Source of the DNA: Ignavibacteriales bacterium
Lineage (GTDB): Bacteria > Bacteroidota > Ignavibacteria > Ignavibacteriales > SURF-24
Length of the DNA: 64,000 nucleotides
NCBI GenBank assembly: GCA_003599415.1
Contig: QZKB01000148.1
Coordinates: 62,001 to 126,000 of the forward strand
Direction: 5' to 3'
Shown here: positions 1,478 to 62,685 of the stretch, piece by piece
Position numbering within the stretch: position 1 is the stretch's first letter
Layout: every line of letters starts with the position of its first letter
Made by a program: the position numbers and the translations under genes
Notes under the pieces: model-generated
Told to the model about the DNA's origin: nothing
The model's database searches: none
What the model saw: only the letters and a program-made list of their open reading frames with translations

Positions 1478-4400
1478 TTACTTCATTAAGATCATCTTTC
1501 TTGTCTGAATGTAATTCCCGGCTTGCATTCTGAAAAAATAAATTCCGCTTGCATATCCGGCTCCGTTGAAGGAGATTTCATAAGTACCAGCTTCCTTCTC
1601 TTCATTCACCAGGTTAGCTACTTCCCTGCCTAAAGCATCAAAAATTCTTATATTAACTTTTGATGAGACCGGTAATTCATAGTTAAATTTTGTTTCAGGA
1701 TTAAATGGATTCGGGAAATTCTGTGAAAGAGAATATTCTTTCGGAACATTCTTTCCTGATTCAACAATCTGGGAATACCATGCAGAACCGTCAAGATCAA
1801 TCTGTTTCAGGCGGTAATAGTAATTACCAGCTTTAATATTCCTATCAATAAAAGAGTAGCTATGTTTTTCAGTTGATGTTCCAAATCCCGCAACAAACCC
1901 GATTTTTATGAAATCTGTTTTATTGCTGCTCTTTTGTATTTCGAATCCGGCATTATTTGTTTCAGTAGCTGTTGACCATTTCAAATTAACATTGTTTGCG
2001 TTAGTTTCTGCTGTAAATGAAGACAGTTCTACCGGGACATTTATAATTACAGGCATTTTACAATTGCTGTATAGTTGAGAAATTTCCTCTGTAGAAAGTG
2101 CTCTGTCAAATATTGCAACATTATCTAATTGGCCATTAAGGTAAGAAATAGTACCCGTGGTTCCGCTTTTACCAAGCATTGCAACCTGTCCTGTTAATAC
2201 TGTACCCGTTAAAGGAAGAGTTCCTTTTAGAACTCCATTCATATAAATCTGTGCATTAGCGCCATCATAAACACCAACAACATTAATCCATTTTCCAGTA
2301 ATCAGGTCAGCCTGAGCAATACCGGGTCTTGCTGCGCCGCCTGTTGTTGCTGCTTTAAATCTTAATTCTTTATTCCCTTTATCTGCATAGATTACATATT
2401 GGTCTCCCTGAGAATCAAACAAAGGTCCGTAAGACATTGTCATTTCTGTTGGGAGATAATTAAGTTTTGTCCAAACAGATACAGTCACCTTGCCAGATGT
2501 AATATCGAACGAAGGTGAAGATGAAAACTGTACATAATTATCAACTCCGTTAAAGCCAAGTGCATTACCTGAGTATCCTGCCCATGGACTTGAACTCATA
2601 ATTGTACCGTTATTTTTATTCGGGGAAAAATCGAATAATGTATCCGTACGGGCTTCATCCATTGAGTAATATGCAATTAAGTTTGGAGGAAAACCAAAAT
2701 GATGAACGACATATGAACTGTTCTCAGCAATTGTATTTTGAATCGCAGCTCTGTCTTTCAGGTTATTTATCATTAATACATATTCTAAATTTGATAAAGG
2801 TGTTGTGGTAAGAATAACCGATTTTCCGTCGAGAGCTAATACTGCGGTTTGTACAGAAACACCGTTATCAAAAACATAATTGGATTTATTTTCTGCCGTT
2901 GACTCATCAAGCATTTCGCTGAATTCAACTATAACCTTAGTTTCCTCTCCGTAAGATGTTATATATACAGGTTGAGGAGGCTTAGTATCAGTAGTTGTAG
3001 TTGCGGTTACTTCATTGCTGTAGTTTTGGCTTAAAAGCGCCTGAGAATTTTTGGCTCTAACCCTGTAATAAAAAGTTTTATTTTCAGTATTGGTAGCGTC
3101 AAGAAATGATGTTTGATCTCTATCTACTGTAGCAATCAAAGTTGTGGGTGACGGATTAAGATCTCTGTAAATTTCATATCCGACAATTACACTTTCATAA
3201 GTTACTGAAGGCTGCCAGGTTAATTGAACATCTGTTTCAGTCACAGAAGGAATGTCCAGGATAACATCTGAAGGATGAGGATCAATGGCAGCAGTGTTAA
3301 CTGATGAATAAATATCAAATATTTCTTCCGGTGATAGAGCCCTGTTAAATACTTCAACATGATCAATCTTGCCTTTAAAGTATGAGGGGGTCCCCTGAAC
3401 GCCGCTCTTTCCAAGCATTGCTACCTGACCGGATTTAACATTTCCGGTAAGAGAATGAGAATCCTTAAGAACACCATTAAGGTAAATCTTTGCGTTTGAT
3501 CCATCGTAAACTCCCACTACATGTATCCATTCTCCGGCTATAAGATCAGCGCCCGGTATTCCCGGCCGTTCTGCTGAAACGGTTGTTGCGGTTTTAAATC
3601 TTAATTCATTATTTCCTTTATCTTCGTACAAAACATATTGGTCGCCGTCGGAATCGAAAAGCGGACCATATGCTCCCGGCAAATCTGCAGGCACATATGC
3701 TAATTTAGTCCACAGCGAAACCGTAACTGCCGGACCATTAATATCAAAGGAAGATGAAGTGGTGAATTGTACAAAGTCATTAACTCCGTCAAACTCAAGT
3801 GCATTTCCAAGCAAACCCTCTGAAATGAATGCTCCGTTTTTAATTGTTCCATTATTAGCATTAGAGGTACCGTCAAGAATCAGCGTATCGGAACCACTTA
3901 CCTGAACATCATCAAGCTTATAATATGCAATCATATTTGAAGCCATATTATAATGCCTGAAAATAGTTGAACTCGTAACCATTTTATTCGCAGTAATTGC
4001 TCTGTCTGTTATATTCTTTACGGTAATAGTATAAGTTGTGTCAGTCATACTTGTGGTTGTTAGTGTTACGGTTTTTAAGTCCAATGCTAATTTTGCGCCA
4101 AGTACCTTAACATTTTTGTTTATTGAATAATTTGTTTTTGTTTCTGCTGTTGTTTGTTCAACTCTTTCGCTGAATTGTACATAAACTGTAAAAGTATCAC
4201 CCTTTGAGGTTACAGATGAAACAGTAGGTTTAGTTGCGTCAGTTAAAGTTGTAGCAGATACATTGTTGCTATAATTGTTACTTAGTAAACCCGCAGCGTT
4301 TTTAGCTTTAATACGGTAGTGATATGTTTTATTTTCATTATATGTCTCATCAATAAATTCGGTTGTATCTCCAACGGTCGTGTATAAAGTTGTTGGGTCG

Positions 4401-5477: not shown

Positions 5478-6848
5478 TTATTTCATTAAAATCATTGGTC
5501 TTGTTTCTGCTTTATCAGCGGATATTAAATTATAAAAATATATTCCCGAGGCTAAGTCTGTTGCATTAAATACGGTTGTGTAATTTCCTGTATTTTTATA
5601 TTCATTAATTAATGTTTTTATCTCATTACCCATCAAGTCATAAATTGTTAATTTTACTTTACCCGGCTTATCAATATAGAATTCAATTGTTGTTGAAGGA
5701 TTGAACGGATTGGGGTAGTTCTGTTTAAGTTGAAAATGATCCGGTGATTTTGACTCAGAATTATTTTCAATGCCGGTAGTCCATCCGAGTTTTTCTGTTA
5801 TGTATGAAGCAAGTTTTTCTCCCATAGCTTTCTGGTGGCGAACCCGCGGGTGTTTTGACCATGCAGGATCAAAGGGGAAGAAATATGTTCCGATGTTTTG
5901 ATCATTATCGTTATTGTTTAATGATTCTACTGCACCTTTTATATATCCGGGCCAGGGTGATCCGGTTCTTGTAGCATCCATACTGCCTAATGCACAAACA
6001 ATAAAAGCAGCCTGATGATGACTGCGGATTTTACGTACAAAATTAGCGTAAGTATTTGTTATGGTTGCAGAATCCCTTGAACCAAGTAGCCAACTGTCAT
6101 TCTGCATAATATTGATTACTACAACATCTGGTACAAACAAATCAAAATCCCACTCACTTTCTGCTTTTTCAGGATCAAGCCGGTAGTAATAATCGGGCAT
6201 AACCAGATTGAAAAAACTTTTCATAAGCCCAATACCGCTTTTTGCAATGCACATATACTCAGCCTTTAATAACCGTGATGCCACAGCACCATAGGCGAGA
6301 AAATTATTTTCGTATTTCAGATTATCATCGGCATAAGAATCAGGTGCTTCATCACCATACCCGCAGGTAATCGAATCTCCATAGAATAATATCTTACGTA
6401 AAAGTTCTGCATCCGGTTCAAGAAGGTTTTTTCCTTCATCTATTTCCAATCCAAGGAATTTGGTTGAACCTGTGGATGCTTCCGTTCTGCGGAAAATTAA
6501 TAGACTATGAACAGTATCTTTTAATACGGATGAAACCGGATATTTGTTGCTGCCTTTCTTGCAATCAATTAGAAAAGGATGATCATAATCCTCATCAATG
6601 TAAATATCAAAATAAGACTGACCTGTTGAATCATCCAGGGTTATACTAAGCGAAGTACCTTCAAACTTAGTCTTAATGTATGTTCCCGGCCAATAAAGAA
6701 CAGGGCTATCAGGAACACTATTGTTAATTCTTCCCACATAAAAGAAGTTGGGATTATCTGCTGTAATTGTTGTCCCCGATAAATTTGTGATCAATAAAAA
6801 AAGAATGAACGGAAGTAAACGTAAAGTATTAAAAGTAACCTTAGCCAT
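5478..6848 (-). CDS. Secreted SGNH-family carbohydrate esterase (CE2-like) with T9SS sorting domain
   Basis: The protein is 456 aa. It has an N-terminal signal segment (about 10-25) and a beta-sandwich domain (about 30-145, 'YVGR...PVLYWPGTYIKTKFEG') like the N-terminal domain of CE2 acetyl-xylan/glucan esterases. An SGNH hydrolase domain follows, with the block I nucleophile in G157-D-S159 ('YGDSITCGYG'), a block III-like 'IMQND' and a C-terminal catalytic His in 'WSKHP' (H333). The last ~80 residues are a T9SS type A sorting domain ('NYPNPFNPSTTI...'). The likely job is removal of acetyl or similar ester groups from extracellular polysaccharide. SD GAGAGG precedes the start. The gene is preceded by a copy of the 18-bp motif also found before its two downstream neighbours, so the three may be co-regulated. 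The exact ester substrate cannot be read from sequence. Confidence 0.82.
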   Translation of the reverse strand: MAKVTFNTLRLLPFILFLLITNLSGTTITADNPNFFYVGRINNSVPDSPVLYWPGTYIKTKFEGTSLSITLDDSTGQSYFDIYIDEDYDHPFLIDCKKGSNKYPVSSVLKDTVHSLLIFRRTEASTGSTKFLGLEIDEGKNLLEPDAELLRKILFYGDSITCGYGDEAPDSYADDNLKYENNFLAYGAVASRLLKAEYMCIAKSGIGLMKSFFNLVMPDYYYRLDPEKAESEWDFDLFVPDVVVINIMQNDSWLLGSRDSATITNTYANFVRKIRSHHQAAFIVCALGSMDATRTGSPWPGYIKGAVESLNNNDNDQNIGTYFFPFDPAWSKHPRVRHQKAMGEKLASYITEKLGWTTGIENNSESKSPDHFQLKQNYPNPFNPSTTIEFYIDKPGKVKLTIYDLMGNEIKTLINEYKNTGNYTTVFNATDLASGIYFYNLISADKAETRPMILMK

Positions 6849-11023: not shown

Positions 11024-12826
11024 CTACTTCATTAGCAATAATTTTTTAGTCATTGTGAAATCATTTCCTGCAAGTGTATAGAAATAGACACCCGAACAAA
11101 CAGGTAAATTCTTTTCATCATTTGAATTCCACGTTATATAGTTTTCACCGGTTGCAGGATCCTCAATTCTTTTAGAAAAAATTTTTCTGCCGAGCGTATC
11201 GTAAATGTAAAAATCAAGTGGTTGTTCCTTTGAAACAAAAAACTTAATTATTGTATTTCCATTGAAGGGATTCGGATAGTTCTGCTCAAGTATAAATTTA
11301 TCTGGTGTTAAATTGTCCTGTTCGTTCAAACCGGTAGAAACCTGTTCAACAACAATTCCATCAACCAAAGGGTTATTTATCTCAGCCGGGAAATAAATGT
11401 CTATTACTTCATCTTTAATAATAATATTATCAATTGTTAAATTGTACGCTGCATTTTTCCCTGCAGCTTTGAAAATATCAACATTATCTGCCACAAGTGA
11501 ATCTTCGACAAAAATATCAAAAACGCGTTTGTCGTTCTCAGTAAAATAATTTTCAGACATCATCAGTTTCAGTTTGTATGCTCCATTCGGTACACGTACT
11601 TTGTATGTTACAAGGCTATATCTTTCCGACTTGTAAATATAATCTTCATCTGTGCCGCTGATAAGAGCAGAAGTTTCAGCTGCAGTCCCGTCAAGATATC
11701 CATATTCAACACTTTCATTCCACTCCTGATCTGCTAGGTAACCGGAAGATGCCAGACCGCCGACATTTATTTTAATAGGGAAACTCAATTGTTTGGGCAT
11801 ATTAATCATTACGGCTTTTGCGCTTGTAATATTGGGTGGATCTGCAAGATCATTAATTCCCGCAAGAGTTATTAGATTATAACTTTTAGAAAGATCAAGT
11901 TTAGATATAAAGAGATCAACTTTCTTAAGGTTGCCTTGAAGCCGGATGCTGTCTATAACCGTCCCGGCAATCATATATAAGCTTTTATTTTCTGCAGTAG
12001 TTTTATCAAGCTCTTCGGAAAATGTGGCGGTTACTTTTCCACTGGTTGCTCTTGCAGTTAATAGCACCGGAATTTTCTTGTCTGTAAATCCAAGGTTATC
12101 TGGATCAGTAAGACATAGTACAAGTTTGCCATCTCTGAAGACAGCATTTTCCTGAACGAAGTCGCAGTTGTTTCCGTTAAAAGTATGTGTTGCTTTATCC
12201 CATCTTGTTTGGTCCCAGGAATTAAATTCATCTGTCCACAGATGTGTAAAATTATTTCCTGTTCCGTACGTGCCGGTGCCGGGTGTATATGAGTAATAGC
12301 TTACAAAATCATAATATGCAAAGAAGGGAAGAGTGATTTCATTAAAAATACCCGCCCAGTTTTCATAAGCAGGATTCCAGATATTCATCATGATTTTCTG
12401 TGGACGATTTAAAGTTTTAATATGATCTTCTGTTTGTCTTGCTACTTCCTCTCCATCAATAAACCAGGCAACATAATCGGGCGTCCATTCAAAAGCATAT
12501 GTGTGAAAATCTTCTGCGGGATTAAAATTTACATTCTGTGCCCTAACATGGTTGGTTTGTCCCGGTGTTATGGTATTAAACTGAACATTGTCATTATATC
12601 TTCCCATTATTTCAATATCAATTTCATTCCAGGTGCTTGACCCGTCATGATAAGTAAAGAAAGATGAAAGCATTCCTTCGCGCTGTGCAGATTTAATTCG
12701 TGCTTCAAACCTGCCGTAAGTATAGGCGGCCTTAGTGCGATATTCGGCTCCCTTAAAATTTTTTGCATTTAGAACAAACGTGCTTCCCATTAAAATGAAC
12801 AATGTTGTCAGTAATATTTTTTTCAT
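11024..12826 (-). CDS. Circularly permuted GH16 beta-1,3-1,4-glucanase with malectin-like and T9SS domains
   Basis: The protein is 600 aa. The signal peptide (1-21) is followed directly by what is normally the middle of a GH16 licheninase: 'GAEYRTK...YGRFEARIKSA', then catalytic E68-I-D70-I-E72 in the straight ExDxE form of licheninases, then 'HTYAFEWTPDYVAWFIDG' and 'MMNIWNP..ENW.G' (to about 180). The strands that normally come first ('WTDEFNSWDQTRWDKATHTFNGNN', 'RDGKLVLCLTD') lie after them at about 196-242. This is the order known from the Fibrobacter succinogenes glucanase. An Ig-like domain (about 255-345), a malectin-like carbohydrate-binding domain (about 350-495) and a T9SS sorting domain (about 515-600) complete it. 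It likely cleaves mixed-linkage beta-glucan outside the cell. A GH9 gene lies 53 bp upstream and a sensor kinase gene downstream. SD AAGGAAGAG supports the start. Confidence 0.9.
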   Translation of the reverse strand: MKKILLTTLFILMGSTFVLNAKNFKGAEYRTKAAYTYGRFEARIKSAQREGMLSSFFTYHDGSSTWNEIDIEIMGRYNDNVQFNTITPGQTNHVRAQNVNFNPAEDFHTYAFEWTPDYVAWFIDGEEVARQTEDHIKTLNRPQKIMMNIWNPAYENWAGIFNEITLPFFAYYDFVSYYSYTPGTGTYGTGNNFTHLWTDEFNSWDQTRWDKATHTFNGNNCDFVQENAVFRDGKLVLCLTDPDNLGFTDKKIPVLLTARATSGKVTATFSEELDKTTAENKSLYMIAGTVIDSIRLQGNLKKVDLFISKLDLSKSYNLITLAGINDLADPPNITSAKAVMINMPKQLSFPIKINVGGLASSGYLADQEWNESVEYGYLDGTAAETSALISGTDEDYIYKSERYSLVTYKVRVPNGAYKLKLMMSENYFTENDKRVFDIFVEDSLVADNVDIFKAAGKNAAYNLTIDNIIIKDEVIDIYFPAEINNPLVDGIVVEQVSTGLNEQDNLTPDKFILEQNYPNPFNGNTIIKFFVSKEQPLDFYIYDTLGRKIFSKRIEDPATGENYITWNSNDEKNLPVCSGVYFYTLAGNDFTMTKKLLLMK

Positions 12827-12879: not shown

Positions 12880-14883
12880 TTATTTCAGCAGAATCATCTT
12901 TTTTGATGCTGTGTACGTTCTGCCAATTACCTGGTAGAAATAAATGCCTGTTGCTGGCTCATTCCCGGTATTATCATTTGTATTCCATGTGTAAAAATTT
13001 TCTCCGCTTCTGCAAAAATCCAAATCTTTTGTGTGAACTAAATTTCCAAGAGAATCATAAATATTAATCTTTATATCCTCTTCTGCCGGCAGATGAAACC
13101 GGATAACTGTTGATCCGTTAAAAGGGTTCGGAAAATTTTGTTCAAGCTCTATCCGGGAAGGGATAATCTGTTGGAGTGTTCCAAGCCCGCTTGGTTTATT
13201 TACACCTTTAAAAAAGCCTGTAACAAAAACAAGTGGGGAATTCCAATTTATTGCTACTTCGTTTGATGCGTAACTTTCCATTACATCAACATAACATAAA
13301 GCAGGCGGGGTCGAGCTGTTAAAACGCGCTTTTAAAACATCATCACTTAAATATTTATTTGGACCACCGGCAAGCAAGCCTGGTACTGGCGCTGTAATTT
13401 TATCTGCTTCGGAAGGACGATGATGCGGGTGCATAACCGAATTTGTTCCGGTTCCTGTAACAAATGAAATATTATGTGCGTTGCATCCAAGAATATAGTT
13501 AAGCTGATCCAAAGCAGTGTTGTAATAATTCATATCGGCAGTAAGCTGGTATTCCGCTATAAGTAATATCGCTTTATTCAGTACATCTGAATTACAGCCC
13601 CAGTTAAATTCGTTTGATATTAAAGTTAGATGAAAACCACTTGAGTTTCTTCTGGATACTAATTTATCGCAATAAGTTTTAAGCGCTGCTTTCAGCGTAT
13701 TCTTGATTGAGGAATCTGTATTCGGGTTATTACTTAAAAGATAGGTGAGTAAAGCAAGACTTCTAACATTTCCCCAGCCCATTGCGCCTGTAAATATTTC
13801 GGCTTCATTATAATGAGATTTGAAATAGTTATGATACGTTTCTTTTCCTGTAGTTAAAAATAATTCACAGGCAGCCCATAATCTTTCATCTCTGTCATCG
13901 GAATCGCCATATCCACCTGTAAATGTATCGGAAGGATTTTTAAATCCGCCTGTTGGAACAATTGAAGAATGGACTTCAAGATAAGACCAGGCAAGTTCTG
14001 CAGCAGAAAGACATTTGCTTGAAAAAGAAGAATCGAAGGCAGAATATATTCTTGATGCTTTTGCAAGTACACTTGCAAAGTCTCCTGTTGCAGTGCTTGA
14101 TACGGTATAAATATTTCGCATGCCGGAATCGTTATTCGGCATAATAAAACTTTCAAAATTATTTTTTGTAACCTTAAAGAAAACTCCGCCGTCTGTATTC
14201 TGCATTTTCAGGAACCAGTCAATTTCATATTTGTTTTCATCAAGTAAATCAGGAATACAATTTCCGCTTTCGGGAATATTTAAATCATCATTGTAAAACC
14301 GGTCCGGAAATAATTCGTAAGCAAGCAACATTGTACCAACAGTAACTCCGGCATTAACAATATATTTTCCGTAATCACCTGCATCGTGCCATCCGCCGGT
14401 AACTAAGCGGAAGCCGCTTAAACCTGTAGACGTATGATAAAATCCATCTGTTGTATGACAGGCGGTATGGTAATAAACGCCGGCGTGTGTACCAGGCAGC
14501 AAAGAGCCGCATCGCCAGTAATAGAAACCTTTTAATGAAGCTTTATATACATTCTCATAGACGATGTCTGAGATAGTGAATTCATATGATTTTTCACCAT
14601 CTTTAGTGCTGATATAGTAGCGGCCGGTTTCATTGAACGAGGAAAAACTTCCTTTTGATAATGTTAAACCTGTCATCTCATCAGAGATAGTCCGGGATGT
14701 AAGATCTCCGCGGAATTTTATTTGACCGTTAGCGGCGTCACAAATGTAGAAGCTATCCGCACCCGAAGTGCTGAAGACAAATTTTTCTGAGCTTGTTAAA
14801 TAACCTTCCTGATTAATAAATACTGTACAATAGGCGGTAATATTGAAGGCTAATAATAGAAATAATCGTTGAATTTTTATCAT
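12880..14883 (-). CDS. Secreted GH9 endoglucanase with N-terminal Ig-like domain and T9SS sorting domain
   Basis: The protein is 667 aa. It has a signal peptide (1-20), a cellulase N-terminal Ig-like domain (about 21-105, beginning 'INQEGY'), then a GH9 (alpha/alpha)6 barrel (about 110-560). The GH9 signatures are present: 'GGWHDAGDYGKY' with the catalytic base aspartates D167 and D170, 'HPHHRPS' around H487-H488, and the acid E542 in 'YASNEVAINWNSPLVF'. The last ~85 residues form a T9SS type A sorting domain ('EQNFPNPFNGST'). GH9 enzymes hydrolyse internal beta-1,4-glucosidic bonds in cellulose or mixed-linkage glucan. The gene is first of a likely GH9-GH16 pair; a strong terminator separates it from the outer-membrane operon upstream. 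No clear SD precedes the ATG. Confidence 0.93.
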   Translation of the reverse strand: MIKIQRLFLLLAFNITAYCTVFINQEGYLTSSEKFVFSTSGADSFYICDAANGQIKFRGDLTSRTISDEMTGLTLSKGSFSSFNETGRYYISTKDGEKSYEFTISDIVYENVYKASLKGFYYWRCGSLLPGTHAGVYYHTACHTTDGFYHTSTGLSGFRLVTGGWHDAGDYGKYIVNAGVTVGTMLLAYELFPDRFYNDDLNIPESGNCIPDLLDENKYEIDWFLKMQNTDGGVFFKVTKNNFESFIMPNNDSGMRNIYTVSSTATGDFASVLAKASRIYSAFDSSFSSKCLSAAELAWSYLEVHSSIVPTGGFKNPSDTFTGGYGDSDDRDERLWAACELFLTTGKETYHNYFKSHYNEAEIFTGAMGWGNVRSLALLTYLLSNNPNTDSSIKNTLKAALKTYCDKLVSRRNSSGFHLTLISNEFNWGCNSDVLNKAILLIAEYQLTADMNYYNTALDQLNYILGCNAHNISFVTGTGTNSVMHPHHRPSEADKITAPVPGLLAGGPNKYLSDDVLKARFNSSTPPALCYVDVMESYASNEVAINWNSPLVFVTGFFKGVNKPSGLGTLQQIIPSRIELEQNFPNPFNGSTVIRFHLPAEEDIKINIYDSLGNLVHTKDLDFCRSGENFYTWNTNDNTGNEPATGIYFYQVIGRTYTASKKMILLK

Positions 14884-22164: not shown

Positions 22165-24840
22165 TTATTTAATAAGCATCATTTTTTTTGAGCTCTGGAA
22201 GCCTTCAGTGTTAATCTGGTACATGTAAATACCGCTTGATAAGCCTGAAGCATCAAAGTTTACATTATAAACACCTGAGTTTTGATTAGCATTTACTAAT
22301 TCTTTTACTTGTCTTCCAAGTACATCATAAATCTTCAATGTAACAAAGCCAGGTTTCTCAAGTGTGTACCTAATCTGTGTTGTCGGGTTAAACGGATTAG
22401 GATAGTTCTGTGATAATTCGTAAGACAACCTTTTAACGTCTTTATCGTTAACACCTACTGTCCATTGGTCGCCAATCCAGGTATACGTCCAGCGAGCGGT
22501 CGTACTCCATGAATTATCGTCGTTTAACGGAGAATAACAAAGGATTCCTTCTCTATCATTAGGACCCTGAGGGCTGTCATTATCGTTAATTGAAAAGTCG
22601 ATTGGTATTCTCATTCCTCTCTGAGGAACAAACACGTCATCCATAGTTGTTGCACCGGCATTACGTTTTGTAGCAATATCCTGCCAGGAAACTCTTGCTT
22701 CTACAGTATAACCTGTTGGGAATTTTTCACCCCAGAAGTAGTCAGCCGTACCAGGTAATAATAAAGAATCGCTGCTTTGACCATCAAAGAATCCTCTATT
22801 CTTAGAGAAGCGGAAATGATAATCAGGGGTAGCACCTCTTCTGTAAACACCGTGCGGTTCGCCATGCCAATCATATAAACCGATGAAAAGATCCGGGCAA
22901 TCGCTAAGGTAAGAAGCAATTTCACTTTCCGGTCTAACTGCAATAACATCATCTTCAATATCAAAAGCAACATAGAGGTATTGTTGATCTGCTGCTAAAT
23001 AAGCAATTACCTTTAAGTCAGCATCGCCGTCAATAGCTGTGTTAGGAGCAATAAAACCTGAGCCGTCAGTAACAGACATAACAATAGGAGTAATATTAGC
23101 CCATTCGGTTAATACGCCATCTGCAACAAATGTAGTTGTCGGAGCATGATCAATATCAATTACAGGAACACCTTTTGCTGTATTGGTAATAGGTGTTGAA
23201 AGAGAAACCGGTAAACCAACATTTCCTACTCTATCTGTAGCATTAACAGCATAATAATAAGAAACAGGCTGATCTGTTAAAGGTGCTCTTAAAATATGTT
23301 CTGCAAGCTGAGTGTTTTCCGGAACGTTTAAGGCAGCAACTTCAACGTCTGCCGCAGTAAGATCTGTGATTGGATTAAAGCTATAATAAACATCATAAGT
23401 TTCTTCTGATTCACTTGGTACATCACTCCAGGTTACTAAGTTTGAATAAGTACCTGCAACTCCAAGTAATCCTTCTGGTGGATTTGGAGCAGTAACATCG
23501 GTTTCTCTATAACCAACAGGTGACATTAAATCAAGTAAAATAGAGCCAGAACAAATTTCACCCTGAACATAAGGAGCATCTGCTGAACCTGAGAATTCAA
23601 TTTTCCAGGCGGCAATTTTATCTAGGTTTAATACACCATCACCATAGTTTCCGGAGTTCCATGAAGGTACGGTGAATCCTTTTGTACTTAGTGTACCAAG
23701 GCCAACACCAAGATCTTTCAAAGGAATTTTAATCATCTGCCATTCTGTATTTGCAGTATATAGATCGATTGGAACAGTCATCTGCCAGGGTTCGCTAGTT
23801 CCGGAACTTTCATCATATAAGAAGAATCTGAAAGTAACACGGTTTGCAGCTCCTGTTGTTGGAGTAACAACTTTATAATATAAAAGAAGGTCGGTGTTTG
23901 AAGTCAAATCCTGCATGAAAGTACCATCTGCAAAATCATGCTGAATGTTGACATAACCTCCCCAGCTTTGGCTGTTGTTTACGGTGAAGTCATATTTCAA
24001 AGAGGAATAACCTTCGAATGGGTGGTCTGTAACATCAGTTAAAGTAATTGCTCCTTTTCCTGCATCACCAGCCCATTCCATTTGATCAATTGCATTAAAA
24101 TATCCATTGGTAGCAGTAGAGTCGAAAGTTGTGATTGCGGGATATGCAGTACCAAGAAACTCTAATTTATCAAAAATAACGGTACCGGTTGCCTGGCCGT
24201 TATCCGCGATACCTGGAGTTTCAAATTCAAAAACGTAACCGACAATTTTATCGAGATCTAATGTACCATTGTTAGTTGTGCCTGCCCATCCGGGTAATGA
24301 AAAACCTTCATTATTAGGACTGCCAGCACCCCTGTCTACAAGAGGAATTATAAGATAATTCCAACCAGGGGCAGCATCATAAACTATTGTACCGGCATTA
24401 AAATACCAGCTTTCATGGTCTGCATTACTTGCCCAGTAATTTGCGCTTCCACCGGCGTCAAATATTTGCATTCTTAATTCAACCTGACCCGGTTTACTTG
24501 ACGGGGTTACGTTATAATACCATAACCTTAAAGCGGCAGCTCCGCTCCAGTCAATATAGGTTGAATCTTCCTGTGGCACAGTATAATTCATAAAAGAATA
24601 ACCGCCCCAACTTTCAGTTGAGTGTACAAGCCAGTCAATTTTCAAGGCTCCGGGGCCGTCATAAACGGGATCAGTAATATCCGTAAAAATCAGCGAGCCA
24701 TCACCAGTCTGTGCTCCATCAGCCGGAGCATGAACAAAGAAAGAATCCGCTGTAACGGTATCAAATCCATTTACTATCCACTGGGCTTGAACCATTGTTG
24801 CGAAGGACAATAGGAAAAGAACTATAGAAAGTTTTTTCAT
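22165..24840 (-). CDS. Secreted multi-domain carbohydrate-binding protein with T9SS sorting domain
   Basis: The protein is 891 aa with a signal peptide (1-19). Two related jelly-roll domains follow (about 20-235 and 236-450): both start with a 'FDS/T' strand and share 'ESWGGY'/'QSWGGY', 'LDLDKIVGYVFEFE'/'LNLDKIAAWKIEFSG' and 'GTVIFDKLEF'/'GSILLDLMS'. They look like CBM11/CIA30-type beta-glucan-binding folds. A fibronectin III domain (about 455-560) and a CBM9/DOMON-like domain (about 565-790, 'ADLKVIAYLAADQQYLYVAFDIEDD') come next, then a T9SS sorting domain (about 808-891). No glycosidase motif is visible, so it is probably a surface glycan-binding scaffold. The SSS symporter gene lies 49 bp upstream on the same strand and likely shares its transcript. 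CBM family assignments are by fold pattern and not certain. Confidence 0.75.
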   Translation of the reverse strand: MKKLSIVLFLLSFATMVQAQWIVNGFDTVTADSFFVHAPADGAQTGDGSLIFTDITDPVYDGPGALKIDWLVHSTESWGGYSFMNYTVPQEDSTYIDWSGAAALRLWYYNVTPSSKPGQVELRMQIFDAGGSANYWASNADHESWYFNAGTIVYDAAPGWNYLIIPLVDRGAGSPNNEGFSLPGWAGTTNNGTLDLDKIVGYVFEFETPGIADNGQATGTVIFDKLEFLGTAYPAITTFDSTATNGYFNAIDQMEWAGDAGKGAITLTDVTDHPFEGYSSLKYDFTVNNSQSWGGYVNIQHDFADGTFMQDLTSNTDLLLYYKVVTPTTGAANRVTFRFFLYDESSGTSEPWQMTVPIDLYTANTEWQMIKIPLKDLGVGLGTLSTKGFTVPSWNSGNYGDGVLNLDKIAAWKIEFSGSADAPYVQGEICSGSILLDLMSPVGYRETDVTAPNPPEGLLGVAGTYSNLVTWSDVPSESEETYDVYYSFNPITDLTAADVEVAALNVPENTQLAEHILRAPLTDQPVSYYYAVNATDRVGNVGLPVSLSTPITNTAKGVPVIDIDHAPTTTFVADGVLTEWANITPIVMSVTDGSGFIAPNTAIDGDADLKVIAYLAADQQYLYVAFDIEDDVIAVRPESEIASYLSDCPDLFIGLYDWHGEPHGVYRRGATPDYHFRFSKNRGFFDGQSSDSLLLPGTADYFWGEKFPTGYTVEARVSWQDIATKRNAGATTMDDVFVPQRGMRIPIDFSINDNDSPQGPNDREGILCYSPLNDDNSWSTTARWTYTWIGDQWTVGVNDKDVKRLSYELSQNYPNPFNPTTQIRYTLEKPGFVTLKIYDVLGRQVKELVNANQNSGVYNVNFDASGLSSGIYMYQINTEGFQSSKKMMLIK

Positions 24841-26784: not shown

Positions 26785-29157
26785 TTACTTTATTAAAATC
26801 ATTTTTTTAGTCTGATTAAATTCCCCTGCTTCCATCTTATAGAAATAAATTCCCGATGACAGATGTTTAGCATTTCCGCCAGAGGTGGACCCACCTTCGG
26901 CGGAAAACTCAACTTCGTAATTACCTGCCGGTTTTTCTTCATTTACAAGTGTTGCAACTTCATTCCCAAGAATGTCATAAATCTTTAACGTTACATTTTG
27001 TAGAGACGGGGTATACCCCGTCTCAACGTGTGGAACTGCATATTTTATGGTTGTAACCGGGTTAAAAGGATTAGGATAGTTCTGTTCTAATTTAAATTCA
27101 GTTGGAATAACTTTGCTTTTGTCATTTTCTTCAACATCCGTAATTACACCGCCCATGTTAAAATATGGTGTATAAGATTCAATTAATTTTCTGCCAACGG
27201 GTTTTATTTTGTTCCTGTCCATACTGTAAAGGCCCATGCTTTGATAACCTTTCGGATGTCCATGTGAATACCAGTCAAATATACACCACCAGGTAACACC
27301 CATTAAGAACCCGCTTGGGTTATAATTGCCCCCACTGTTTATAGGAGCATAAATCTGGAAAGCCTTAAATGTTTCAGAAAAAACCGTAACTTGTTTGTTA
27401 GTATCAGAGTTTGTTTCGGTTGACCAGTAACCAAACTCTGTATCCAATACCGGTTTACCGGGTTGATTCACTTTAGCTCTTATTAAAAAATTATTTGTAC
27501 CGGCATAGTAAGTGCTACCATGAAAAACGCCGAAATACATTGTCCATCCTGCAACATCGCAGGCTTTCTGAGAATCATCTTCAGGACCAGGTCTGTCTGC
27601 AGCAGCAGATTGTGTTATCAATCGCCCATCCTTGATTTTTCCGTTTAATTCATTCCACATCTTCTCAATAAAAATTTTTCTGTTCGGAACATCAAGACAC
27701 TCGTTACACAGGCTCCACATAATTATGGAAGGTCTGTTCATATCTCTGTAAACCATTTCCTTAAACATCTGTTCGTGTATATGCCTGTCGTTATTTTGTA
27801 TTTGCCATGCAGTTTCTTCATCAAACCACCACACAGGAATTTCTTCAACAATTGCTATCCCCAACCTGTCTGCTAAAAGATAAGTATAAGGATGATTTGG
27901 ATAATGGGCCGTTCTAAGCATGTTTGCTTTTGTAGCTTTTACAAGTTCAAGATCAGAAAGTATTACTTCTTTAGGAATACTTCTTCCGTAAACAGGATGA
28001 TCTTCATGTCTTGCCACTCCGGTAAAGAAAACAACTTTATTGTTAAGGAGAACTTTATCCCCAGAGCGTTTTATTATGCGAATTCCGAATTGTGTGTAAA
28101 ATTCATCGGTTGTGTTTCCATCAACTGAAAGAGTAACTTTCATTATATAAAGATTTGGATCCTGCGGGGACCATAATTCCGGATTCTCAACTTTTATATT
28201 TGTCCGCCATACATTGAATGAATCACTTTCTACTGAAATACTTGTTTGTGTTGGGCCTGTGGTTTGTGCGGCATTACCAATTAAATCGTAACCTTTTTCT
28301 GCATCAAGATTGAGCGAATCAATATTGGCTTTGAAAATATTAATTGTTACATCAACATTTTTACTTGTGCTGTTTTTATTCAGAACTGTTATTGTTGTTT
28401 CAAGATTACCGGTTTCATCTTTTGTAATTACATCTGCTCTAACAACGGAAACAGGTTCGGCAATTTCAAGATAAACATCATGAATAATTCCCGCATAATT
28501 AAACCAGTCAACTTCATAGTAGGGAACAATATCTTTCCGTTTTCCCCATTCGGGATTATCAACTCTAACCGCTAAAATATTTTGTCCGTCTGATTTTAAT
28601 ATGCCGGAAACATCAAAAGCAAAAGGAGTATAACCACCTTCATGATAGCCTAAATACTGGTCGTTCAGCCACACATCAGCAACATAGTTAACAGAATAGA
28701 AAATCAGTTTGATGAATTTATCGTTAACGGAACTGCCAATATTAAATTTATATCTGTACCAAATACCATCCTCATAATATTCTGGTACTTTTGGAAAGGC
28801 ATACATTGTATTTTCAACACCGGGAATATTTTTATCTTCCCAGCCGCTGTCATTAAAATCAGACTTGTACCTGTTCTGCGCTTCCGCCAGCAATCCGTTC
28901 ATTATATTTGAATCTCTTTTGGATAATGAAAGACTGTCGTTAGCATTAAACCTTTGCTTTTTCCATGTTCCCCTTAAAGAAATTGTAGTTCTGTTTTGTT
29001 TTTCAAAAGATGGAACAGGCATGCCATTCTGAAAAGGGATATAAATTCCATTACCTGAATTTAAACCAAATGTTGCTTCCAAATCAGCAACCTGGGAGCG
29101 GATGTTACCTAAAGCGATTAAAATAAAAACAACAATAAGTAAACCTCTTATTCTCAT
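26785..29157 (-). CDS. Secreted GH2 glycosidase with T9SS sorting domain
   Basis: The protein is 790 aa. A signal peptide (1-21) is followed by the GH2 sugar-binding domain (about 57-235, 'GIWYRYKFNI', 'VNYVADVWLNDQYLGYHEGGYTPF'), an Ig-like domain (about 240-360) and a TIM barrel (about 362-690) with acid/base E486 ('WSLCNECLD') and nucleophile E574 ('LDTEFGYW'). The T9SS type A sorting domain fills the last ~95 residues. GH2 covers beta-galactosidase, beta-mannosidase and beta-glucuronidase; the sequence alone does not decide which. The sorting domain is interrupted by two in-frame palindromic DNA insertions ('ETGYTPSLQ' and 'GGSTSGGNA'). SD AGAGGG supports the ATG. A candidate sigma-54 promoter and a double palindromic operator lie upstream. 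Confidence 0.88.
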   Translation of the reverse strand: MRIRGLLIVVFILIALGNIRSQVADLEATFGLNSGNGIYIPFQNGMPVPSFEKQNRTTISLRGTWKKQRFNANDSLSLSKRDSNIMNGLLAEAQNRYKSDFNDSGWEDKNIPGVENTMYAFPKVPEYYEDGIWYRYKFNIGSSVNDKFIKLIFYSVNYVADVWLNDQYLGYHEGGYTPFAFDVSGILKSDGQNILAVRVDNPEWGKRKDIVPYYEVDWFNYAGIIHDVYLEIAEPVSVVRADVITKDETGNLETTITVLNKNSTSKNVDVTINIFKANIDSLNLDAEKGYDLIGNAAQTTGPTQTSISVESDSFNVWRTNIKVENPELWSPQDPNLYIMKVTLSVDGNTTDEFYTQFGIRIIKRSGDKVLLNNKVVFFTGVARHEDHPVYGRSIPKEVILSDLELVKATKANMLRTAHYPNHPYTYLLADRLGIAIVEEIPVWWFDEETAWQIQNNDRHIHEQMFKEMVYRDMNRPSIIMWSLCNECLDVPNRKIFIEKMWNELNGKIKDGRLITQSAAADRPGPEDDSQKACDVAGWTMYFGVFHGSTYYAGTNNFLIRAKVNQPGKPVLDTEFGYWSTETNSDTNKQVTVFSETFKAFQIYAPINSGGNYNPSGFLMGVTWWCIFDWYSHGHPKGYQSMGLYSMDRNKIKPVGRKLIESYTPYFNMGGVITDVEENDKSKVIPTEFKLEQNYPNPFNPVTTIKYAVPHVETGYTPSLQNVTLKIYDILGNEVATLVNEEKPAGNYEVEFSAEGGSTSGGNAKHLSSGIYFYKMEAGEFNQTKKMILIK
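26873..26906. repeat. In-frame palindromic insertion in the GH2 sorting domain (element 1)
   Basis: An imperfect palindrome whose arms are TTTCCGCC and GGCGGAAA at the ends and AGGTGG / CCACCT at the centre, with 2-base mismatched bulges. Within the gene it encodes roughly 'AEGGSTSGGNA', in a place where the sorting domain of neighbouring proteins goes straight from the 'F.A' strand to 'L.SGIYFY'. Confidence 0.65.
27003..27024. repeat. In-frame palindromic insertion in the GH2 sorting domain (element 2)
   Basis: A perfect 22-bp palindrome (GAGACGGGG, TATA, CCCCGTCTC). It encodes the core of 'ETGYTPSLQ', which interrupts the usual link between the first sorting-domain strand ('TTIKYAVP') and 'VTLKIYDILG'. 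It is distinctly richer in GC than the gene around it. Confidence 0.7.
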
Positions 29158-61452: not shown

Positions 61453-62685
61453 TTAATTTAAATCGATGACGGTTTGATTTGGATAAGTTAAAATTGCAAT
61501 AACATAAGCGGCTATCACCACGATCATTCCGTACATAAAAATGTTGTAGCAAATTCTAAGGTACTTGTATTTTTTGCCGAGCACTATGCCAAGGTAATAG
61601 AAATCTTTAATCATACTTCCGTAAAGGTATTCGCTGTCGTTCATCATTTCTTTCATTCCCCATTCAAAGTCGTTCAGGTTCATATTAAAAAAATTGCCGA
61701 AGAAAAGAAGGTTTGCCTTCTTCTGTTTAATATCATCAACCGTAAAAGTACCGGAAGTAACCTGGGGCTTGGTAACAATTGCGGCATATACAATTGTTAA
61801 TAAACTTACAATAAGTAAAATCATAGTGGGAATAATTAAATGGGGATTAGCATCAAGCTTTCTAACAAGAACAGAAATAACGATTGAAAGAAGAATTGTG
61901 TTCACGCTAATCATTATATGTGCTTTATTATCAGCCATGCCGCTAAGCCTTAAATGGTTAGTAGCAGTTATCCTGAACATTGTTTCAATACCACGTTCAG
62001 GCTTAAGCTGTTTTTCTTTCTTTAGCTCAAGTTTCTCCTTCTGTATCTCAAGTTTTGATAAATCAAATGTCTGTTCTTCAGTTTTTTTGCGGAGTTTCTT
62101 TTGCAGCTTTAAAAGATTTTCCGTTCTCTGCTTTCCATAATTTTCCCGTGCTGCTTTTGTTCTGAAAGGATTACCGATCATAATGTCAATGCTGTTTTTA
62201 AGCCATTCAAAATCGGTATAAGTTTTTCCGGTTGACTGCTCAAGTTCAACTCTTAGCAAATCACCTTTTTCAAAAAAACTTTTTTTACCGAGATGACTTA
62301 AGTCCGCATCGCATACAACTTCCTCAAGTAAATCTTTAGGCTGCTGGGGAATTCTGGATGCAACAATACAGCTTTTAACCTTCTCAATTTTATCAGCCGG
62401 GTAATTTTGTACAGTTAAAAATTCTGTGGCAATCTCAGAGCTAATCAATTCGTGTTCTTCGCGTTTAACCGTGTAGCCGCTATCGTGGAAGAGTGCAGCA
62501 AGTAGAACAATCTCTGTTTCGCTTGTATTCAAGCCCGACTCGTCCGCTAGTTTTTTTGCGGTTTCAAACACTTCATTTGAATGTGTAAAATTATGATAGA
62601 CAATTTTTTCAGATAATTTGTTTTGAAGTAAGTCCGAAACAAATTCATATGCTTTCTTTACTATGATTGAGTTTGCCATGACCAT
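61453..62685 (-). CDS. HD-domain phosphohydrolase fused to a Pycsar-effector-like membrane domain
   Basis: The protein is 410 aa; the ATG two codons downstream (Met3) is an alternative start. The N-terminal HD domain (about 25-175) has the metal ligands 'YHNFTHS' (H35), H67-D68 ('LFHDSGY') and a later Asp in 'VVCDADLSHLG'. It is followed by a coiled, lysine/glutamate-rich linker (about 175-230). The C-terminal part (about 233-400), starting 'MFRITATNHLRLSGMADNKAHIMISVNTILLSIVIS', is the PycTM domain known from Pycsar defence effectors, with three to four transmembrane helices. No cyclic-nucleotide cyclase gene adjoins it, so it is not a standard Pycsar pair. The close spacing to sixA and ppk1 suggests a housekeeping signalling role instead. 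Confidence 0.85.
   Translation of the reverse strand: MVMANSIIVKKAYEFVSDLLQNKLSEKIVYHNFTHSNEVFETAKKLADESGLNTSETEIVLLAALFHDSGYTVKREEHELISSEIATEFLTVQNYPADKIEKVKSCIVASRIPQQPKDLLEEVVCDADLSHLGKKSFFEKGDLLRVELEQSTGKTYTDFEWLKNSIDIMIGNPFRTKAARENYGKQRTENLLKLQKKLRKKTEEQTFDLSKLEIQKEKLELKKEKQLKPERGIETMFRITATNHLRLSGMADNKAHIMISVNTILLSIVISVLVRKLDANPHLIIPTMILLIVSLLTIVYAAIVTKPQVTSGTFTVDDIKQKKANLLFFGNFFNMNLNDFEWGMKEMMNDSEYLYGSMIKDFYYLGIVLGKKYKYLRICYNIFMYGMIVVIAAYVIAILTYPNQTVIDLN

Follow-up and report, generated by a model that had tools for sequence, protein, structure and literature searches.

In the established view of repetitive extragenic palindromes (REPs), these repeats are probably moved by REP-associated tyrosine transposases (RAYTs) acting on single-stranded DNA. 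REPs tagged with GTAG are palindromes of 20–40 bp, some of them within open reading frames (ORFs), and a TAG stop codon may come from their GTAG foot (Di Nocera et al. 2013, PMC3733652); RPE-4 and RPE-6 of Rickettsia belong to the CGTC REP superfamily and have no dedicated transposase (PMC3733652). According to Quentin et al. (2018, PMC6006769), TnpA_REP/RAYT proteins of subclass 2.4 go with 'double-foot' GTAG REPs in Cyanobacteria and Bacteroidetes, and in-frame insertion of a REP into its own tnpA_REP gene is a unique feature of this subclass. Here we set beside these systems a palindrome that interrupts, in-frame, a type IX secretion system (T9SS) sorting domain encoded by an Ignavibacteriales bacterium (assembly GCA_003599415.1). 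The window, i.e. the whole stretch of DNA analysed, comprises 64,000 nt (positions 62,001–126,000 of contig QZKB01000148.1).

An in-frame palindrome that recurs at one loop of T9SS sorting domains

The palindrome, its host gene of glycoside hydrolase family 2 (GH2) and the interrupted domain lie at the following window coordinates:

27003..27024, no strand: perfect 22-bp palindrome GAGACGGGGTATACCCCGTCTC (exact match and shuffle control)
27000..27027, no strand: whole REP-like element of 28 bp with 14-nt arms, encoding V-E-T-G-Y-T-P-S-L plus one base
26785..29157, minus strand: host gene, encoding a GH2 (beta-galactosidase/glucuronidase-like) protein of 790 aa with a C-terminal T9SS sorting domain (ORF and profile matches)
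26797..27078, minus strand: T9SS type A sorting domain (Por_Secre_tail, residues 694–787), interrupted at loop 1 by the palindrome and at loop 2 by another hairpin

An earlier note on this DNA, made from the letters alone, had described the 22-bp palindrome, and its position, perfect symmetry and in-frame reading as V-E-T-G-Y-T-P-S-L-Q all prove exact. The multi-copy state of the element, its GTAG/CTAC feet and the second hairpin (26873–26906) had escaped that note. An inverted-repeat search widens the palindrome to 28 bp, with two arms of 14 nt each (27000–27013 and 27014–27027) that are 93% complementary and have no spacer between them. At the 27000 end the GTAG foot is complete; the other foot is degraded, with GTTG for GTAG when read on the minus strand. 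The host domain scores above the cut-offs of both PF18962 (35.4 bits, cut-off 27) and TIGR04183 (24.3 bits, cut-off 23), and the element is predicted to form an RNA hairpin of -19.4 kcal/mol (z -4.3). In a structure prediction for a 111-residue fragment of the domain, the palindrome insert falls in the loop between strands E22–29 and E41–48, and the second hairpin insert in the loop between strands E66–73 and E90–98; this loop assignment rests on a model with a mean predicted local distance difference test (pLDDT) score of 76, and of about 63 in the insert region. A search of solved structures with the sorting-domain sequence returned marginal matches only.

No second match to GAGACGGGGTATACCCCGTCTC occurs in the window, even with up to three mismatches allowed (shuffled-sequence expectation 0.00). 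We surveyed the source genome (5.03 Mb in 173 contigs; completeness 88.5%, contamination 7.3%) by pattern searches that left room for different cores and that may miss copies with degraded feet; a copy counted as good if its symmetry reached 85% or more and it had a foot resembling GTAG. This recovered 33 good copies with about nine different cores, nearly all symmetric. The shuffles and the multi-copy state together rule out a chance palindrome, and the 33 copies rule out one unique to the GH2 gene. The repeat family has the layout GTAG-AGAC-variable symmetric core-GTCT-CTAC (28 bp), most genome copies reading GTAGAGAC...GTCTCTAC, and the double-foot pattern (a GT[AG]G foot with a complementary C[TC]AC foot) has 22 exact matches. 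The cores are TCATATATGA (14 copies), GGGGTATACCCC (4), the TTGCGCGCAA type (4), GGGGCATGCCCC (3), GGGATATATCCC (3) and the CCATATGG type (2), the others being single.

As many as 27 of the 33 copies lie at one shared loop (beta1–beta2) of different T9SS sorting domains, where 26 share one open phase (V-E-T-x-x-x-x-S-L). Of the remaining six, five fall within RAYT genes or next to them, and intergenic copies are nearly missing. The earlier note had envisaged copies divided between intergenic and in-frame sites; this spread fails to appear, as nearly all copies fall in the one T9SS loop or in RAYT genes. T9SS sorting domains occupy about 0.8% of the genome and hold six of the eight counted core classes, a concentration with a chance probability of the order of 1e-11; the corresponding probability for 27 of 33 copies is far below 1e-11, although the copies are non-independent. 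Carriers account for 27 of about 163 sorting domains in the genome, and most domains are without the palindrome. Relative to empty loops, the carrier loops are longer by a net +9 to +24 nt (3 to 8 residues), against an element of 28 nt. At the same loop, about nine further domains contain versions of the element that are degraded or nested, with a CCGCC..GGCGG hairpin inside the core. In the 27th loop copy, at C90:7612 (L049), the core CCATAAATGG brings an in-frame TAA that truncates the sorting domain, and the insert probably broke this gene.

Cores shared with RAYT genes

The RAYT gene on contig C15 contains a GGGATATATCCC copy, inserted in-frame after the MPNHIHA motif (C15:25433), and has a second GGGATATATCCC copy at its 3' flank (C15:25656), the GTAG foot of which supplies the RAYT TAG stop (L006, C15:25653). 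The RAYT gene on C66 contains GGGGCATGCCCC (C66:3041) and has a related REP at its 5' flank (C66:3367), while that on C166 contains a third core type (C166:181). In all of these genes the internal REP follows MPNHIH[AG] and precedes the C-terminal part, which places it between the HuH and Y motifs, the position of the Y being judged by eye. The HuH motif PNHIH is present in the RAYT proteins, and PF01797 is over its cut-off for the C15 protein only. Two of the RAYT-internal cores, GGGATATATCCC and GGGGCATGCCCC, reappear in T9SS loops. Relatives also have palindromes inside RAYT genes (L135, L136, L137, L139 and L319). Because of its GTAG/CTAC feet and its location in or beside RAYT genes, we group the element with the GTAG double-foot REPs.

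Sister domains, orthologues and wider distribution

Five other T9SS sorting domains of the window lack a VETGYTPSL-type insert, as the earlier note had said of the sister proteins. They lie at the following coordinates:

22168..22410, minus strand: sister sorting domain, loops empty
1481..1723, minus strand: sister sorting domain without insert
5481..5723, minus strand: sister sorting domain without insert
11027..11284, minus strand: divergent sister sorting domain without a window-type insert
12883..13140, minus strand: divergent sister sorting domain without a window-type insert

Among GH2 orthologues in relatives, loop 1 is free of such a palindrome in 18 of 19, and the closest orthologue (65% identity) has an ordinary short loop. 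The 19th, in genome G013 of another family, has a different core at loop 1, encoding VETRRGESL, and another copy at loop 2, encoding VETRHASSL. The element is thus neither unique in its genome nor conserved in orthologues, and the proposal of a mobile repeat that tolerates in-frame insertion into linkers holds up, with the movement inferred.

The double-foot pattern occurs in 50 of the 96 relatives scanned, with a dominant core that varies by genome, and is absent from all four other members of the same family. Elements at the same T9SS loop are also present in relatives of two other families. G071 (another family) has TCATATATGA at this loop in three domains with differing flanks, and some copies in G044 and G022 lie at the same loop. 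In a counter-test with G026 and G020, copies are mostly in short ORFs or intergenic DNA, with no T9SS domain among the sites examined. The T9SS bias is therefore strong in the source genome, found in some others and not universal.

Among the matches listed, the combination of GTAGAGAC with the exact core GGGGYATRCCCC is present in Bacteroidota and Ignavibacteria, in the candidate phyla Moranbacteria, Buchananbacteria and Roizmanbacteria, and in one Acidobacteriaceae and one Anaerolineales genome. Again among the matches listed, about half of the tested copies at GGGGYATRCCCC loci lie in long open frames (which do not by themselves establish a gene), and almost all of these open-frame copies use one of the two phases in which no TAG stop arises. 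One sequence of Moraniibacteriota (L170, position 1665) encodes an in-frame VETGHTPSL in an apparent tRNA dimethylallyltransferase (MiaA) gene, named by motif only. Elsewhere (L172, L180, L285 and L237) element copies are clustered or tandem, and some encode repeated VETGHA units.

Other hairpin families in sorting domains

The interrupted domain of the window contains one further insert:

26873..26906, no strand: second, unrelated hairpin insert TTTCCGCCAGAGGTGG / CCACCTTCGGCGGAAA, in-frame, encoding AEGGSTSGGNAK, in loop 2 of the interrupted domain

This second palindrome family (TTCCGCC..GGCGGA; 26873–26906 and L359–L374) has about 11 of its 14–16 matches in T9SS domains, by coordinates; it lies at loop 2 in the window gene and is nested within the GTAG REP core in others. 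A control for the CCGCC pattern, itself hairpin-like, is equally frequent, so that abundance is uninformative and only location counts. A third, unrelated hairpin repeat, ACCTCACCCCAGCCCTCTCC...GGAGAGGG...GGGTGAGGT, encodes TSPQPSPYQGEGVRV at loop 1 of two tandem paralogues (L092; C12:4818 and C12:15998).

History of the loop

In a tree of 82 sorting domains from the source genome, built with the loop left out, the TCATATATGA class forms one clade that needs one change, and the other classes are scattered; for the ten labels combined, 20 changes are required. Owing to the shortness of the domain, support is weak at most forks. Two near-identical domains with different cores (C13:61567 and C165:7378) share 85% of the left flank against 68% of the element, and four paralogues on contig C12 have three different hairpin repeats at loop 1. 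Judged from the sequences, (i) the TCATATATGA class (14 copies) appears to have spread chiefly by duplication or conversion of sorting domains, and (ii) the other core classes look like the products of repeated insertion or core exchange. Point mutation followed by arm-to-arm correction is disfavoured as the source of the different cores, because roughly one core position in two differs between near-identical domains.

Across the 13 full domains of the TCATATATGA clade, codon pairs for the same residue differ in 2% of cases in the element, against 33% in the left and 22% in the right flank. Synonymous variation affects 22 of 32 constant-residue columns in the flanks and one of eight element columns (Fisher p = 0.006). 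Since the element codons are near-invariant amid diverged flanks, the DNA itself seems to be kept. This suggests that the palindrome may be renewed or held at the DNA level, few element columns having entered the test.

Origin of the element

We consider it highly probable that the window palindrome is a GTAG double-foot REP tied to subclass 2.4 RAYTs (the subclass being assigned by likeness to published features), with a history in which (i) a RAYT would move REP copies; (ii) copies would enter the tolerant beta1–beta2 loop in the frame-open phase, adding 3 to 8 residues; (iii) different REP types would have arrived at this loop, or have been exchanged there, several times; and (iv) the TCATATATGA type would then have multiplied through duplication or conversion of whole sorting-domain cassettes. 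Inserted copies would survive because a loop that joins two strands tolerates extra residues and the element is open in phase. Loop tolerance, rather than targeting, would explain the position.

Several points weigh against this reading. No transposition was observed, and the data contain no clean strain-level pair of empty and filled sites (the nearest GH2 orthologue is 65% identical). The net gain of +9 to +24 nt from a 28-nt element implies that target bases were lost or that the insert was later trimmed, and simple insertion is thus not demonstrated. The 88.5% complete genome yielded no RAYT that contains the TCATATATGA core. The best family for the RAYT proteins, NF047646 (REP-associated tyrosine transposase), scores 54 and 45 bits, below the 80-bit cut-off, as would be expected if the palindrome interrupts these proteins. 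An element that inserts at random would not be expected to have so few intergenic copies; possible reasons are loop targeting, exchange at resident palindromes or multiplication with sorting domains.

A different part for the transposase, which we regard as unlikely, is exchange at resident palindromes: RAYT-driven strand exchange at the GTAG/CTAC feet would swap cores, and the loop would be a docking site, not a target of new insertions. Near-identical sorting domains that combine the same feet with different, perfectly symmetric cores would fit such exchange, as would the near-absence of intergenic copies from the source genome and the invariance of palindromes between diverged flanks. However, independent insertions at a tolerant loop would look alike, and no strain-level swap was seen. 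A wider form of this idea, which strikes us as rather doubtful, is that REPs settled in T9SS loops as exchange sites, with RAYT strand exchange at the feet swapping cores between the loops and RAYT-borne copies; the shared palindromes may also promote cassette shuffling between secreted proteins.

A role in RNA close to the mRNA 3' end of secreted-protein genes (e.g. decay protection or pausing) is an improbable reason for the retention of the hairpin. The strength of the predicted hairpin, the location of the element 60–90 codons ahead of the stop and the perfect nucleotide conservation within the TCATATATGA class would suit this role, but any REP would be expected to fold in the same way, most sorting domains do without a hairpin and so do 18 of the 19 GH2 orthologues. 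We likewise find it quite improbable that the history is one of protein alone, in which a linker peptide (VETxxxxSL), useful or neutral, originated a single time and was then spread by domain duplication, with the palindrome as a by-product. Domain duplication does account for 14 of the 27 copies, given that members of the TCATATATGA class form one clade and have downstream sequence in common; yet the element codons of that class are retained as DNA (2% against 22–33% in the flanks), the other cores are scattered, near-identical domains have different cores, and the same elements occur in RAYT genes, in other genes and in intergenic DNA of other phyla. The kinship with protein-coding palindromic elements of the Rickettsia type that the earlier note proposed is hardly credible: the behaviour of an in-frame palindrome at a tolerated position is alike, but the GTAG/CTAC feet, the 28-bp length and the RAYT association contradict it, RPE-4 and RPE-6 being CGTC REPs (PMC3733652).

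With the REP reading preferred, a transposase-linked 'extragenic' palindrome would be found almost wholly within coding DNA, in a single loop of a single export signal, across many genes. If this is general in such bacteria, it would offer a test bed for the movement of REPs by RAYTs, with sites, cores and phases readable from dozens of paralogous loops, and also for how repeats add peptides to proteins. As the loop residues are repeat-derived, they should not be taken for functional sorting-signal sequence.

Comparison with known systems

Like miniature inverted-repeat transposable elements (MITEs), the present element is a small non-autonomous repeat, probably moved by a transposase encoded elsewhere; unlike them, it is wholly one palindrome, and neither a target-site duplication nor terminal inverted repeats flanking a spacer were seen. 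With the Rickettsia palindromic elements it shares the toleration of in-frame palindromes in protein-coding genes, whereas its GTAG/CTAC feet and RAYTs set it apart from the CGTC-tagged RPE-4 and RPE-6. It resembles the GTAG REP families (PMC3733652) in its GTAG-tagged palindromes within genes and in the foot-supplied stop, here that of the C15 RAYT; the intragenic REPs of those families lie mostly in varied genes and sites, whereas here at least six cores share one loop of one domain family. The closest likeness is to the double-foot GTAG REPs, with which it shares paired feet, multiple copies, RAYT genes flanked by the same REPs and in-frame REPs inside RAYT genes; the concentration in T9SS sorting domains (27 of 33 copies here) is not described in the sections of PMC6006769 that we used.

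In the open-access literature we found no report that joins T9SS with palindromic repeats or RAYTs with sorting domains, and the element's sequence letters occur there in primers and unrelated sequences only. In brief, we take the element to be a member of the known REP/RAYT kind, in an unusual and apparently unreported niche in one T9SS loop. What is new here is the occurrence of six core types on one T9SS loop, near-identical domains with different cores and an invariant palindrome amid synonymous divergence of its flanks.
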